Shown here: piece by piece, positions 17,438 to 52,082 of the stretch
How the letters are laid out: the number at the start of each line of letters is the position of its first letter
Numbering within the stretch: position 1 is the first letter of the stretch
Notes under the pieces: model-generated
Databases searched by the model: none
The model's input: the letters and a program-made list of their open reading frames with translations, nothing else
Told to the model about the DNA's origin: nothing
Translations under genes and position numbers: made by a program
DNA from: Faecalicoccus acidiformans
GTDB lineage: Bacteria > Bacillota_I > Bacilli_A > Erysipelotrichales > Erysipelotrichaceae
Reading direction: 5' to 3'
Assembly (NCBI RefSeq): GCF_014202635.1
Contig: NZ_JACHHD010000014.1
Coordinates: forward strand, 1 to 61,189
DNA length: 61,189 nt

Positions 17438-17473
17438 AAAGAAATCTCTTTTTCTTGAGCCCAGAAGAAAAAA

Positions 17474-17620
17474 CTGTTTATAAGAAAGCAGGTCTCCCGA
17501 CTTCATTTCATCCTCTGATCGCCTTCCCGTATTTCCACAGTGGCTTTGATCATCGTCCATATCACGGTTGCTGGGGCAGTTAAAGCTTTTACTTTATTCC
17601 CTTGACTTCCTTATAAGTGA
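17474..17620 (-). ncRNA. Cobalamin (B12) riboswitch
   Basis: Read on the minus strand, the region holds the B12 aptamer landmarks in order: ACTGCCCCAGCAACCG, AGCCACTG, GGGAAGGC and the B12 box GAAGTCGGGAGACCTGC. It is followed by a terminator right before the operon, so cobalamin binding should shut transcription. The ends given are approximate. Confidence 0.93.
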
Positions 17621-17627
17621 TTCAATT

Positions 17628-20797: not shown

Positions 20798-20814
20798 ATA
20801 ACTGCATAAAATAA

Positions 20815-20920
20815 ATCTTCAGGGCAGAGTGAAATTCTCGACCGGTGGTACAGCCCACGAGCCGAAAGGCAGATTCGGTGCAACTCCGAAGCCGACAGTA
20901 TAGTCTGGATGGAAGAAGAT
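20815..20920 (+). ncRNA. FMN riboswitch (RFN element)
   Basis: Near-consensus FMN aptamer: closing stem ATCTTC / GAAGAT, GGCAGAGTGAAATTC, ACCGGTGGTACAGCCC, ATTCGGTGCAACTCCG, GCCGACAGTATAGTC and GGATGGAAGA. It precedes a RibU-type transporter. A GACGC...GCG hairpin at about 20948-20994, next to the ribosome site, is the likely expression platform. Confidence 0.96.
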
Positions 20921-21011
20921 GCTTTTTTTGTACATTTTTATAGACAAAAGACGCACCTGAACTGGAAGAGTTATTTTAGGCGCGTTTTCTTTGTTTATGG
21001 AGGTGTATATC

Positions 21012-40564: not shown

Positions 40565-40812
40565 ACAGATGCAACGATGGGAAAGAGTAAGATAAGTTCC
40601 CGTTTCAAAGAGACTTTCTGTTTGGTGAAAAGAAAGAGCGGTCTTATTTGAACACATCCCGGAGCACTCGGACGAAATCGCAGTAGTCTGGATCGGGTAC
40701 ACCCGTTATCGTGTTAGAGTATGTCAGTACTTGAAGAGGTCTTGATCGCGAGATCAGGATGAAGTAAGGTGGAACCACGTTGAATACGTCCTTATCAGGA
40801 CGTTTTTTTTGT
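40565..40812 (+). ncRNA. T-box riboswitch, histidine-specific
   Basis: The leader holds a stem I with a GAAAGAGTA kink-turn region, the T-box AAGGTGGAACCACG (40765-40778) and a terminator ACGTCCT / AGGACGT with a T-run (40784-40812). In the likely specifier loop, between the two arms of stem I, the triplet CAC (40653-40655) is a His codon, matching the histidine genes that follow. Uncharged tRNA-His would stop termination and turn the operon on. Confidence 0.92.
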
Positions 40813-47527: not shown

Positions 47528-47853
47528 TCAAACTTGATTTTTTAAAACAAGGAGGCTTAATTCCTTGTATCGTTCAAGAAGAAAAGACCAATGAGGTCTT
47601 AATGTTGGCGTATATGAATGAAGAAAGCCTGGAAAAAACAATCGAGACCGGGTTGGCGACATATTGGTCTCGTTCCCGAAATGAACTCTGGGTCAAAGGA
47701 GAAACCAGCGGACACGTCCAGCACGTAAGTCAGATCTTGGTGGATTGTGATCAGGATACGCTTTTGATCAAGGTCCGACAAGAAGGGGCCGCCTGCCATA
47801 CGGGAAAACATTCTTGTTTTTATCGCACGATCCAGGGAAAGGAGATCCTATGA
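47524..47853 (+). CDS. hisI: Phosphoribosyl-AMP cyclohydrolase
   Basis: A 109-residue stand-alone cyclohydrolase that opens the purine ring of PR-AMP. Signs are [43 protein letters not shown] and the zinc cysteines in [13 protein letters not shown]. The ATG overlaps the hisF stop; the frame is also open upstream, but inside hisF. Confidence 0.96.
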
Positions 47854-48173
47854 ATGAATTTGAACAGCTCTACCAGACAGTACTAGAGCGTAAAGAACAT
47901 CCGGAAGAAGGAAGCTATACCAGCTATCTTTATGAAAAAGGGCTGGAGAAGATCTTGAAAAAGGTCGGGGAAGAAAACACAGAAGTTATCATCGCGGCCT
48001 TATCCCAAAAGAATGAAGATCTCATCAATGAACTGGGCGATCTTTTTTATCATCTCTTTGTCTTGATGGTGGAAAAAGGGGTCACACTTTCCGAAGTGCA
48101 GGAAGAATTGGCGCGTCGTTCGCAGAAAAAACATAATTTAAAGGCAGAAAGAAAGCCAATCACAAACTATTAA
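47850..48173 (+). CDS. hisE: Phosphoribosyl-ATP pyrophosphatase
   Basis: A 107-residue all-helical MazG-like enzyme that cuts PR-ATP to PR-AMP. Signs are [21 protein letters not shown] and [14 protein letters not shown], with the Glu/Asp metal site. It is the last gene of the operon and overlaps hisI by 4 bases. No histidinol-phosphatase gene is in the operon. Confidence 0.95.
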
Positions 48174-48221
48174 AACCAAAAAAGCCAGTATCATGACCGA
48201 ACAATCCAGATGGCTTGTATA

Positions 48222-48248
48222 AGTGAGATCTTGTGTTATGATACAAGT
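48222..48248 (+). promoter_or_regulatory. Promoter of small RNA copy 1
   Basis: TATGAT (48237-48242) lies 6 bases before the conserved first base of the RNA; a weak TTGTAT is 16 bases farther up. The second RNA copy has a -10 box (TATACT) at the same distance. Confidence 0.5.
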
Positions 48249-48437
48249 GAACAAAGGGTTGATAACTTAGAGATGGTCTAAGTTTGATAGAAAATCCATG
48301 GTGATCTGAAAAAAAAGGAAAATAAAAGAAGAAAAAAAGCAGATCGAAAAAGCTATGGTAAAAAGGAATCCAAAGATGAACCTTGGAAAAAACAATAATG
48401 AAAAAGCGAAAGGTTCGGAGATTGGATTCTTTTTTTG
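48249..48437 (+). ncRNA. Candidate structured small RNA, copy 1
   Basis: A gene-free stretch with three paired regions: AACTTAGA / TCTAAGTT with a 5-base loop (48264-48284), CCATGG...GATCTG / CAGATC...CTATGG (48296-48358), and a long terminator stem with GGAATCC...AACCTT / AAGGTT...GGATTC and T's (about 48363-48437). The first 50 bases are about 90% identical to the RNA at 50196. The later stems differ in sequence but still pair. I recognise no known RNA class. It converges on a minus-strand operon. Confidence 0.6.
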
Positions 48438-48440
48438 TGC

Positions 48441-48986
48441 TTAAAGCAGACGGTTTTTGAAAGAGGATGGCAAACGTTCTGTCACGCGTTGAGTGATCCA
48501 TAGCCCCAGCAAGCGGTCGGCATAATCGGTGATCCCCTGTACAATAAAACAACTCAGCATCAGTCCTAAAGGTGTCTTGGCGAGGATCTGTACGAAAATC
48601 GTCATTCCTGAAGAAGTCAATCCTCCAAAAAGAAAAGCCGTGATGCAGGCGCTGACAAGCGAGGTCGGCAAAGAAACAAGAAGAGCAAATAAGAATAAGT
48701 TCATGCGCGGCTTTTTTTCAAAGATCAGACCAGTGATCAGACCCAATAAAATACCAACAGGAGCATAGTACAAAGCATAGATGTCGCTTGTCATTCCAAG
48801 GATCAATCCGCTGAGAAGATTGGGCAACATTCCGTAGACCGGGCCGCATAAACTGGCAGTTAAGAAAGTGCCGATGCTGTCGAAATAGAGGGGAAGATGT
48901 AGCCATAAGGCAATATTGGCTCCTACGATATTGATCACGATCGCCAGTGCAACCATGCAGATAGAAAAAGGGCGAAATTTAGTCAT
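48441..48986 (-). CDS. ECF transporter S-component, possibly for a nucleobase/queuosine precursor
   Basis: A 181-residue membrane protein with about six helices: LPLYFDSIGTFLTASLCGPVYG and LGLITGLIFE fit the ECF S-component fold. It overlaps the upstream nucleoside hydrolase gene by 8 bases, and GGAGG precedes its ATG. A nucleoside hydrolase plus S-component pair is the arrangement of queuosine salvage (QueK and QrtT) described in Clostridioides difficile. That substrate is inferred, and another purine or pyrimidine derivative is possible. Confidence 0.75.
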   Translation of the reverse strand: MTKFRPFSICMVALAIVINIVGANIALWLHLPLYFDSIGTFLTASLCGPVYGMLPNLLSGLILGMTSDIYALYYAPVGILLGLITGLIFEKKPRMNLFLFALLVSLPTSLVSACITAFLFGGLTSSGMTIFVQILAKTPLGLMLSCFIVQGITDYADRLLGLWITQRVTERLPSSFKNRLL

Positions 48987-49968
48987 GGGAATCCTCCTTG
49001 AGAAGTGCCGGTAAACGCAGTAGTTCTTCCGTTTTTTTGTTTAGGATCGTCGAAAGAAAGAGTTCAAAGAATCCTAAAACATTCACTTTTGTTAAGATAT
49101 AGGCATTGGGTTTGTGGCGATAAAAATCATAGGCATCGACCACACTTTGACCGCGACACAGCCCATCTGTCTCTATTTGGACATACGATAAAAATCCTTC
49201 ACAGAGATCGGGTTTCAATAAATAAGCAATCGCCAAAGGATCGTTGATGACGCATCCGATCAGATTTTCTTGTTTGAGATGGAACTCAAAATAAAACTTT
49301 GTGATCTTTTCGATGAAATCTCCTTCTTTTGGATCTAATTCTGTGATGTAGGCTAGTATTTCAGGAGTCAGAACGATTTTGCGGGTGACATCCAAGCCGA
49401 CCATATGAAGAATTCGATTGGTTTGATCACAAGTCTCAAAGACAAGCCTGGCGGCTTCGGGATCTTCCCAGTAATTGTATTCGGCAACCGGTGAACAGTT
49501 GCCTTGGGCTTTGTAGCTGCCGCCCATGGAAATGAGCTGATCAATGGATCGAAAGGCCTCCAAATCTTGTTGGATCAGCTGGGCAAGATTTGTTAAAGGG
49601 CCAATCGCAATCACCGAGCATTTTTCTTTTTTGAGGGTTCGTGATAGAAAAGAAAGAGCACTTTCTTCTTGAAAGTAGTCGGGGATCGGCTCTAAAAAAC
49701 TTTCTCCTAAACCGTCGCTTCCATGGGTATCGAGGGCATTGACAAATTCTTTTTTTAGCGGTTGAGAAGCTCCGCAATAGACAGGGATATCTAGACGATG
49801 AATATGAGCTAATATCTTTTTTGCGTTTTCAAAACCCATCTCTACGGGTGAATTGCCGGCCACAATTGTGATGCCTAAAACTTCGATCTTGGAAGATAAT
49901 AGAGAAAAGAGGATGGCCAGACTATCGTCAATCCCCGGATCACAATCGATGATGATTTTTTGAGACAT
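48979..49968 (-). CDS. Nucleoside hydrolase, IunH family (QueK-like candidate)
   Basis: A 329-residue hydrolase that splits the base from a ribonucleoside. The family's calcium site is IIIDCDPGIDDSLAILF near the N-terminus, and IAIGPLTNLA is also typical. The family acts on inosine, uridine and other nucleosides; its neighbour, an ECF S-component, suggests salvage of an imported nucleoside, perhaps queuosine. The ATG at 49968 is chosen because AAGGAAAAGAAAG precedes it; 26 more codons are open upstream but run through a terminator hairpin. Confidence 0.85.
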   Translation of the reverse strand: MSQKIIIDCDPGIDDSLAILFSLLSSKIEVLGITIVAGNSPVEMGFENAKKILAHIHRLDIPVYCGASQPLKKEFVNALDTHGSDGLGESFLEPIPDYFQEESALSFLSRTLKKEKCSVIAIGPLTNLAQLIQQDLEAFRSIDQLISMGGSYKAQGNCSPVAEYNYWEDPEAARLVFETCDQTNRILHMVGLDVTRKIVLTPEILAYITELDPKEGDFIEKITKFYFEFHLKQENLIGCVINDPLAIAYLLKPDLCEGFLSYVQIETDGLCRGQSVVDAYDFYRHKPNAYILTKVNVLGFFELFLSTILNKKTEELLRLPALLKEDSHD

Positions 49969-49988
49969 AACTTTCTTTTCCTTTCTAT

Positions 49989-50023
49989 AAAAAAAGTGCC
50001 TTGCCCGATCATAGACAAAGCAC
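49989..50023 (-). terminator. Leader terminator (attenuator) before the nucleoside hydrolase gene
   Basis: On the minus strand GTGCTTTG and CAAGGCAC form a hairpin followed by seven T's. It lies inside the roughly 80-base leader, between the promoter (TATAAT at 50060-50055) and the start codon. Upstream, ATAACTTTTTTCTTTT could pair with AAAAGAAAGTTAT around the start codon. This looks like a switchable attenuator; no known aptamer was recognised. Confidence 0.6.
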
Positions 50024-50054
50024 GATAAAAGAAAAAAGTTATCCATTGCCTATT

Positions 50055-50083
50055 ATTATACTGGGAGAGCAAGAAACCAGTTG
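50055..50083 (-). promoter_or_regulatory. Promoter of nucleoside hydrolase operon
   Basis: TATAAT at 50060-50055 on the minus strand. The -35 region is weak. The transcript would start near 50048 and include the attenuator. Confidence 0.5.
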
Positions 50084-50195
50084 TTCATGTTATAACATAG
50101 AAAGAAGATCTTGACAATAGACGATTTTTTCCAAATATCTTTCCGCTTTTTCCACAGAAGCCAACCTTTGAAAAATATTATGATATACTGTAAAC

Positions 50196-50410
50196 GAACA
50201 AAGGGATGATAACTTAGAGAAGATCTAAGTTAGATAGAAAGCCATAAGACCAAAGAAGGCAAATCAAAAAAACAAAGAAGACATCCTAGAGGAAAGGGTG
50301 AAGAAAAAAGGTCTTATGGAACAGAAAAAGAAAAGAGTTCATCAAGACCCGCTAAGCAAACAATAAAGAAGGTTAGAAAGGGATCGATTAAGATGAGCTC
50401 TTTTCTTTTG
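50196..50410 (+). ncRNA. Candidate structured small RNA, copy 2
   Basis: Second copy of the RNA at 48249. It shares GAACAAAGGG, the AACTTAGA / TCTAAGTT hairpin (50211-50231) and GATAGAAA. Then comes a perfect 10-base stem CCATAAGACC / GGTCTTATGG (50242-50319) and a terminator stem whose 18-base arms (50326-50343 and 50392-50409) pair at 17 of 18 positions and end in TTTTCTTTT. TATACT lies 6 bases before the first base. It ends at the stop codon of the minus-strand ZIP gene. Confidence 0.62.
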
Positions 50411-51290: not shown

Positions 51291-52082
51291 ATGAAAGAAA
51301 TGAATTTGTTTAAAGAAAATCCCATCGGTGTCTTCGATTCGGGCTTGGGCGGTATCAGTGTCTTGCATACGATCCAGAACCTGATGCCTAAAGAGGATCT
51401 GATCTATTTTGGAGATTCTAAATACAATCCGTATGGAACGAAGACGAAAAGCGAGATCACAAAGCGTTGCATAGAAATCTGTGATCATCTGATGGAAAGA
51501 GGCTGCAAGGCTATCGTGATCGCCTGCAATACGGCAACCAGTGCCTGTGTTCCGCTATTAAGAGAGCGGTATCCGGTGGATATCATCGGCATGGAGCCGG
51601 CCTTAAAAGTAGCTTGTTCTTTAGGTGAAAATCAGACGGTTGCTGTCTGGGCCACGCACTTTACATTGGTTGAAGAAAAGTTTGCGCATTTGATGGAGCG
51701 CTTTGATCAGGAACATCGGATTGTCAAGGTTGCTTGCCCTAAACTGGTTCAACTTGTGGAAGAGGATCGGCTGGATCAGAAAGAAACGATCCAGAAAGTT
51801 TTACAAGGCTATATTGAACAGGGGCCGATGGATTCACTAAACAGTATCGTTTTGGGCTGTACCCATTTTGTGTTTTTCAAAGAACAGCTTCAGTCGATTC
51901 TTCCGGCTTCTGTCTCTTTGGTTGATGGAAATCTGGGCACAGCGATGCATCTGCAGGAATTGTTAAAGGAAAAGGAACTCTTGAATGAGCATGGGGGTTC
52001 TTTGATCTTGTTTGAAAATACATTAGAAGAAAAAATCGAACTTTCCAAGAGATTGTTTCAAAAAATAGGAGGTATGTTATGA
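51291..52082 (+). CDS. murI: Glutamate racemase
   Basis: Makes D-glutamate for peptidoglycan. It is 263 residues with IGVFDSGLGGISVL, catalytic Cys in VIACNTATSA and in LGCTHFVFF, and the GDSKYNPYG strand. The leader appears very short or absent. It overlaps the aminopeptidase gene by 4 bases. Confidence 0.96.
   Translation: MKEMNLFKENPIGVFDSGLGGISVLHTIQNLMPKEDLIYFGDSKYNPYGTKTKSEITKRCIEICDHLMERGCKAIVIACNTATSACVPLLRERYPVDIIGMEPALKVACSLGENQTVAVWATHFTLVEEKFAHLMERFDQEHRIVKVACPKLVQLVEEDRLDQKETIQKVLQGYIEQGPMDSLNSIVLGCTHFVFFKEQLQSILPASVSLVDGNLGTAMHLQELLKEKELLNEHGGSLILFENTLEEKIELSKRLFQKIGGML

Follow-up and report, generated by a model that had tools for sequence, protein, structure and literature searches.

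The window, the whole stretch of 61,189 nucleotides from Faecalicoccus acidiformans that we analysed, contains two putative small RNA genes on the plus strand, RNA B (48249-48437) and RNA A (50196-50410). RNA B follows its conserved upstream neighbour, a hisIE-type gene (HisE part; 47850-48173, plus strand). Between the two RNAs lies a local insertion on the minus strand (48441-50046), which encodes an ECF transporter S component (48441-48986) and a nucleoside hydrolase (48979 to about 49968). A ZIP transporter gene separates RNA A from murI (glutamate racemase; 51291-52082, plus strand), which was assigned by its Pfam Asp_Glu_race domain and by synteny, and whose place downstream of RNA A is conserved among relatives. 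A first-pass annotation had described the two RNAs as copies of one structured RNA bracketing a salvage operon, both oriented against minus-strand genes, and the gene map of the window agrees with that orientation. Read from their sequence, 48249-48437 and 50196-50410 are genuine paralogous small RNA genes.

The two copies share 41 of the 45 bases that we counted at their 5' ends, so the high identity noted earlier stands, while the figure given then (46 of the first 50) was slightly generous. The repeat extends ungapped upstream into the promoter (66 nt at 80%), and a 23-base core occurs at exactly two sites in the whole genome when up to three mismatches are allowed (reversed control: 0). 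The first hairpin, P1, is common to both copies as proposed, with arms that read AACTTAGA/TCTAAGTT in RNA B (48264-48271/48277-48284) and RNA A (50210-50218/50224-50232) alike. The second stem, the long-range P2, indeed differs in sequence yet pairs in both: CCATGG/CTATGG in RNA B (48296-48308 with 48340-48345 and 48352-48358) and CCATAAGACC/GGTCTTATGG in RNA A (50242-50251/50310-50319), where an inner module, ACATCC...GGGTGA, lies at 50281-50301. Each copy closes with its own terminator hairpin and T-run, in keeping with the private terminators described before. In RNA B, the terminator stem (48360-48373/48422-48435) encloses an inner stem and an apical loop containing ACAATAA (48392-48398); the RNA A stem (50326 to 50409) also carries ACAATAA in its loop. 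These hairpins have long loops, which explains why a simple terminator scan did not report them. Compared with dinucleotide shuffles, RNA B folds with a z of -5.3 and RNA A with a z of -7.7, and none of 200 shuffles folded as well. No conserved ORF, start, frame or ribosome site was found in RNA A or RNA B. Both are predicted to form their own transcription units with a terminator and no conserved coding content; type D and the small members described below have mini-ORFs.

All four Faecalicoccus genomes (the own genome, G000, and G157, G158 and G159) carry such RNAs, nine copies in total. Type B is represented by the copy at 48249, two copies each in G157 and G158 and one in G159, and type A by the copy at 50196 and one each in G157 and G159. 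Identical motif sites are present on records of F. pleomorphus DSM 20574, the strain of G157, and of an uncultured Faecalicoccus. G159 has the arrangement hisIE-B-A-murI, which looks ancestral, with about 220 nt from B to A and without the window's insertion between them. G157 has an ABC transporter pair between two near-identical B copies (L062, 7678-9350), and G158 has a toxin-antitoxin-like cassette in the same setting (G158:C52, 6419-7553); the second G158 copy has lost its promoter and first bases. Duplication or insertion seems to occur at the RNA gene. The window does show the salvage operon bracketed by the two RNAs, but this is incidental and reflects one of several local insertions, as relatives carry B and A in tandem or with other cassettes between them.

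Two narrow models, R1 and R2, run over 273-316 genomes, found nothing convincing outside Faecalicoccus. Fourteen R1 matches outside the genus (E 0.01-0.5) were examined and resembled chance or coding sequence, and R2, even with filters off, was too narrow to recover the RNAs of sister genera. These were found by reading hisIE/murI intergenic regions, which revealed divergent relatives, 160-700 nt long, in at least three further genera, mostly at this locus. Family members vary more than fourfold in length (147-700 nt). The G100 relative spans about 700 nt in the hisIE to murI interval, those of G160 and G161 precede murI and measure about 310 nt, with an additional short copy in these genomes, and the G001 relative follows hisIE and measures 254 nt as delimited, its 3' end being uncertain. 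In the divergent relatives, P1 reads AACAGAGA/TCTCTGT, AACATAGA/TCTATGT or AACAGAGG/CTCTGT, and P2 keeps its AUCCA...UGGA ends around a variable middle that still pairs. Over P1 and P2, a hand-built alignment of eight sequences, with the unalignable G159_B and the short copy of G160/G161 omitted (a choice that favours structure), contained 12 double-changed cells versus 3.2 in shuffles and at most three in slid versions, with 95% of cells paired. In most Faecalicoccus copies and in G100, G160/161, G143 and G263, the pairing of P2 exceeds that of nearly all shuffles; in G159_A and G142, and in the short copy of G161, it does so only weakly, and in G001, G204 and G202 P2 is unsupported against shuffles. 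The earlier proposal of covarying stems holds, but it rests on P2 and on the relatives, since P1 is almost invariant between the two window copies. With homologues in further species and genera, the two copies belong to a real RNA family, as had been suspected.

The inner ACATCC...GGGTGA hairpin module recurs in type A, in G001_b and three times in G100, where it sits in repeats spaced about 172 nt, and an ACAATAA loop is found in or near the terminator of many members. Exact-pattern scans gave only chance-like matches in GTDB outside Faecalicoccus and matches unlike the RNA in viral contigs. BLAST searches of RNA A against phages and of RNA B and type D against plasmids returned nothing convincing, and type D had no match in viral contigs. 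The spread is so far confined to one bacterial family. Within it, G202 (C23:213500-224000) contains two almost identical 354-nt family RNAs 6 kb apart, each preceding a gene whose large product looks secreted; transposase-like genes lie between the copies. A purine-rich stretch of about 400 nt that precedes murI in G004 (about 1080-1440 of L113), with a terminator at its end, may be a further, highly diverged member.

Upstream of both window copies, we identified a pair of CCA boxes 21 bp apart. In the RNA B promoter (48182-48208), these are located at 48185-48187 and 48206-48208, with an ACC between them at 48196-48198, and are followed by a core promoter (48214-48242) composed of a weak -35 (CTTG, 48214-48217) and an extended -10, TGTTATGAT (48234-48242). 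The RNA A boxes (50127-50154) lie at 50131-50133 and 50152-50154, upstream of the extended -10 TGATATACT (50181-50189). The -10 elements TATGAT (48237-48242) and TATACT (50184-50189) end six bases before the first shared base, exactly as first annotated. That a simple sigma-70 scan did not include either promoter is probably due to the combination of an extended -10 with a weak -35. A third model, R3, combines promoter and P1; we applied it to 316 genomes of the order and then again to 27 genomes. About 40 loci in some ten genera share the promoter, including two further RNAs of the own genome, types C and D. The promoter defines a set of many such RNAs, which the first-pass annotation had no means of seeing. 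As R3 and a promoter matrix were trained on the promoters they describe, and most of the 40 loci were found through R3, we repeated the spacing count with 40 promoters aligned on box 2 alone, omitting G160_C and G161_C, in which the boxes are absent. Box 2 was CCA (C in 38, C in 40 and A in 40 promoters), and an NCA-type box stood exactly 21 bp upstream in 39/40, compared with at most 8/40 for any other distance. Single C residues at -26 and -5 (the latter in 38/40) are likewise 21 bp apart. Downstream of the boxes follow a -35 TTG, a 16-bp spacer and TGnTATnnT. In a matrix scan of about 602 kb, a set biased in that most of its loci were fetched through R3 and used to train the matrix, matches clearly above the shuffled maximum were starts of such RNAs; the exception, one site within a gene, scored at about that maximum.

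Type C was recovered as an R3 match on the minus strand (G000:C9:261-352) and corresponds to an RNA of 165 nt (about 141-305 of G000:C9:1-2000). It lies between a GAF-domain-like gene and an apparent rRNA operon leader at the contig end, reading towards the leader. Its orthologues in G160/G161 keep this position and lack the CCA boxes. Type D, also an R3 match on the minus strand (G000:C10:31591-31667), is an RNA of about 440 nt (about 1181-1621 of G000:C10:30000-33000) that is conserved in G100, G169, G170, G202, G204 and G263. Its core, GCGGTGRGAANATGACAATA, is kept in G204 and G202 as well, while G263 deviates after ATGACA; CTATGGAGARAAGRCTCCAAA also occurs in most type D members. The core is associated with ORFs of 4-12 codons; that of the own genome has an MTIQ-type start. 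Small relatives with the same promoter in G162, G165 and G001 contain AAAGGAG followed by tiny ORFs (MKNKFIS, MNRFIS, MKKRFDFSINRATI). The stop codon of these ORFs falls at the terminator stem, and G001 has several such putative transcripts close together. Because of these mini-ORFs, some members may be dual-function.

The first-pass annotation knew of no RNA class with this consensus, a view borne out by Rfam. At the gathering threshold, neither A and B with their relatives nor C or D matched Rfam 15, and at permissive thresholds (E up to 10) RNA A and B returned only chance-level matches. The window does contain known elements, namely a T-box leader (40565-40796), an FMN riboswitch (20811-20924) and a cobalamin riboswitch (17470-17625). 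A 6S identity was rejected, as the only 6S-like match of the genome lies elsewhere (G000:C13:39615-39773). CCA boxes are absent upstream of this 6S RNA and of the G143 tmRNA. We also rejected a riboswitch or other cis leader, as both window copies converge on minus-strand genes and end in terminators; in G157, a terminator likewise stands between type A and murI. In the open-access papers searched, we found no description of such regulatory RNAs in these common gut bacteria.

The 21-bp spacing pointed to a class of regulator. LytTR regulators bind two 9-bp repeats with a 12-bp separation (PMC2766830), which gives a 21-bp period as in the RNA promoters. The Clostridium perfringens VirR motif, CCAnTT-N15-CCAGTT, lies in front of VR-RNA, which VirR drives (PMC4963840), and its two CCA elements are also 21 bp apart. 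VirT and VirU are further regulators of the VirR network (PMC4963840). The GTT of the VirR/AgrA consensus (CCAGTT or ACAGTT) is not conserved in the 40 promoters; the CCA core is common to both. A LytTR gene was thus expected, and one was then found beside type D: in five genomes (the own genome, G100, G169, G170 and G263), the gene directly upstream encodes a protein with a Pfam LytTR match at E 1e-15 to 1e-17. PDB relatives of this protein include ComE, and no receiver domain was recognisable by Pfam in two full-length D-linked proteins. In the own genome and G100, the order is a murA-like gene (by eye), the LytTR gene, D, a HAD phosphatase and cdaA; type D of G202 and G204 lies among different genes. 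The LytTR gene adjoins D and not A or B. Another gene, at G000:C9:78032 after a weak R3 match, looked like LytTR by eye but has no Pfam domain and was set aside.

Taken together, these observations lead us to favour, with some confidence, a reading in which A, B, C and D are regulatory RNAs activated by a LytTR regulator and acting in trans, as RNAIII does under AgrA and VR-RNA, VirT and VirU do in the VirR network. A signal would reach the D-linked regulator, the best candidate, which would bind the paired CCA repeats and jointly switch on the weak -35/extended -10 promoters of all four RNAs. These would accumulate, ending at their intrinsic terminators, and might act either by base-pairing through exposed segments rich in purines or by retaining a protein at the repeated module. 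The genes, their structure and phylogenetic spread, the common promoter and the LytTR gene next to D are shown by the sequences; that this regulator works on these promoters, and that the RNAs are expressed and function in trans, we infer. A bolder extension, which we put forward only tentatively, is that Erysipelotrichaceae possess an RNA-dominated regulon, in which one LytTR regulator would control several RNAs with structurally capped ends and a hypervariable interior (150 to over 600 nt) along with mini-ORF transcripts, and that the covarying end-stem and repeated ACAUCC...GGGUGA modules define a new class of modular scaffold RNAs. One promoter signature retrieves about 40 RNA genes and names a candidate regulator, which turns the repeat pair into a testable regulon. 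If true, the RNAIII/VR-RNA principle would extend to a commensal lineage, in an RNA family that retains its ends and promoter around an almost freely evolving interior.

LytTR-driven regulatory RNAs are a known principle; the family, its size variability, the promoter signature and the host lineage appear new. One of the closest parallels is the VirR network, where VR-RNA, VirT and VirU likewise have CCA-CCA 21 bp apart upstream of their promoters and several separate RNA genes answer to one regulator (PMC4963840), as proposed here. VR-RNA, of 386 nt, has 5' and 3' ends that are predicted to pair (PMC4963840), resembling P2 of our family. In contrast to that network, the RNAs here have no Rfam match or shown sequence relation, their boxes lack GTT, the candidate is an orphan with no recognisable receiver domain, and the host is a commensal from a lineage of the Erysipelotrichaceae. 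In Staphylococcus aureus, RNAIII of the agr system is also long and structured, and is activated by a LytTR regulator via two direct repeats; type D adjoins its LytTR gene as RNAIII adjoins agr. Unlike RNAIII, however, agrBCD was not seen beside type D, A and B have no delta-haemolysin-like ORF, and Rfam has no match. The CiaR csRNAs, the Qrr RNAs and RsmX/Y/Z are sets of sibling small RNAs, each under one regulator. Their members, too, are paralogues that share one promoter signature and are conserved in part, but the present family varies more than fourfold in length and its promoter type differs. OLE, ROOL and GOLLD (PMC12286853) and raiA/ModT (PMC11706538) are likewise long, structured and non-coding with their own transcription unit; compared with these, the family lacks an Rfam match, has a mostly unconserved interior and is spread in one family so far.

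The RNAs and their promoter could be real and yet depend on an activator that is not a LytTR protein, such as an OmpR-type regulator that recognises a CC at each helical turn, with the RNAs serving mainly as scaffolds or sponges for a protein that binds the ACAUCC...GGGUGA module and A/G-rich loops. Halfway from one box to the other, CC does occur again (C at -5 in 38/40), giving a phasing of about 10-11 bp, and a hypervariable interior with up to three modules in G100 suits a scaffold better than base pairing. The C residues at -26 and -5 are themselves 21 bp apart, however, fitting two direct repeats, and the LytTR gene that adjoins D in five genomes would be left unexplained, so that we consider this combination unlikely, though the most serious rival to activation by a LytTR regulator.

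The remaining explanations appear far less plausible. A very short peptide gene, carried by the RNAs or ancestral to them, with the peptide or its translation as output, would account for AAAGGAG with MKNKFIS or MKKRFDFSINRATI and a stop at the terminator stem in the small relatives of G162, G165 and G001, and for the 4-12 codon ORFs at the GCGGTGRGAANATGACAATA core of type D; as A and B show no conserved start, frame or ribosome site, it is very improbable as a general account. Even less credible to us are repeats that act as attachment or recombination sites of mobile cassettes, their RNA-like features being secondary. Covarying stems, conserved promoters and terminators, and the presence in other genera of one copy at a constant locus would be unexpected for such sites, and phages, plasmids and viral contigs had no convincing match, despite the B copies that flank cassettes in G157 and, with a promoterless second copy, in G158. 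Least probable of all is that the RNAs serve neighbouring genes, either murI or those on the minus strand, as cis-acting leaders or terminator decorations: type A does stand immediately before murI in G157 and G159, but each RNA has its own terminator, both window copies oppose the next gene, and members in G202, G204 and G263 have other neighbours or occur as tandem copies.

We further observed a likely promoter, TTGTCA-17-TATAAC, for the nucleoside hydrolase operon in the inserted segment (49968-50117, minus strand). Its leader contains, immediately ahead of the start codon, a terminator-like hairpin (50023-49996) and may be an attenuator or riboswitch. The -35 of this minus-strand promoter adjoins the RNA A boxes, so one bound regulator could affect transcription in both directions.
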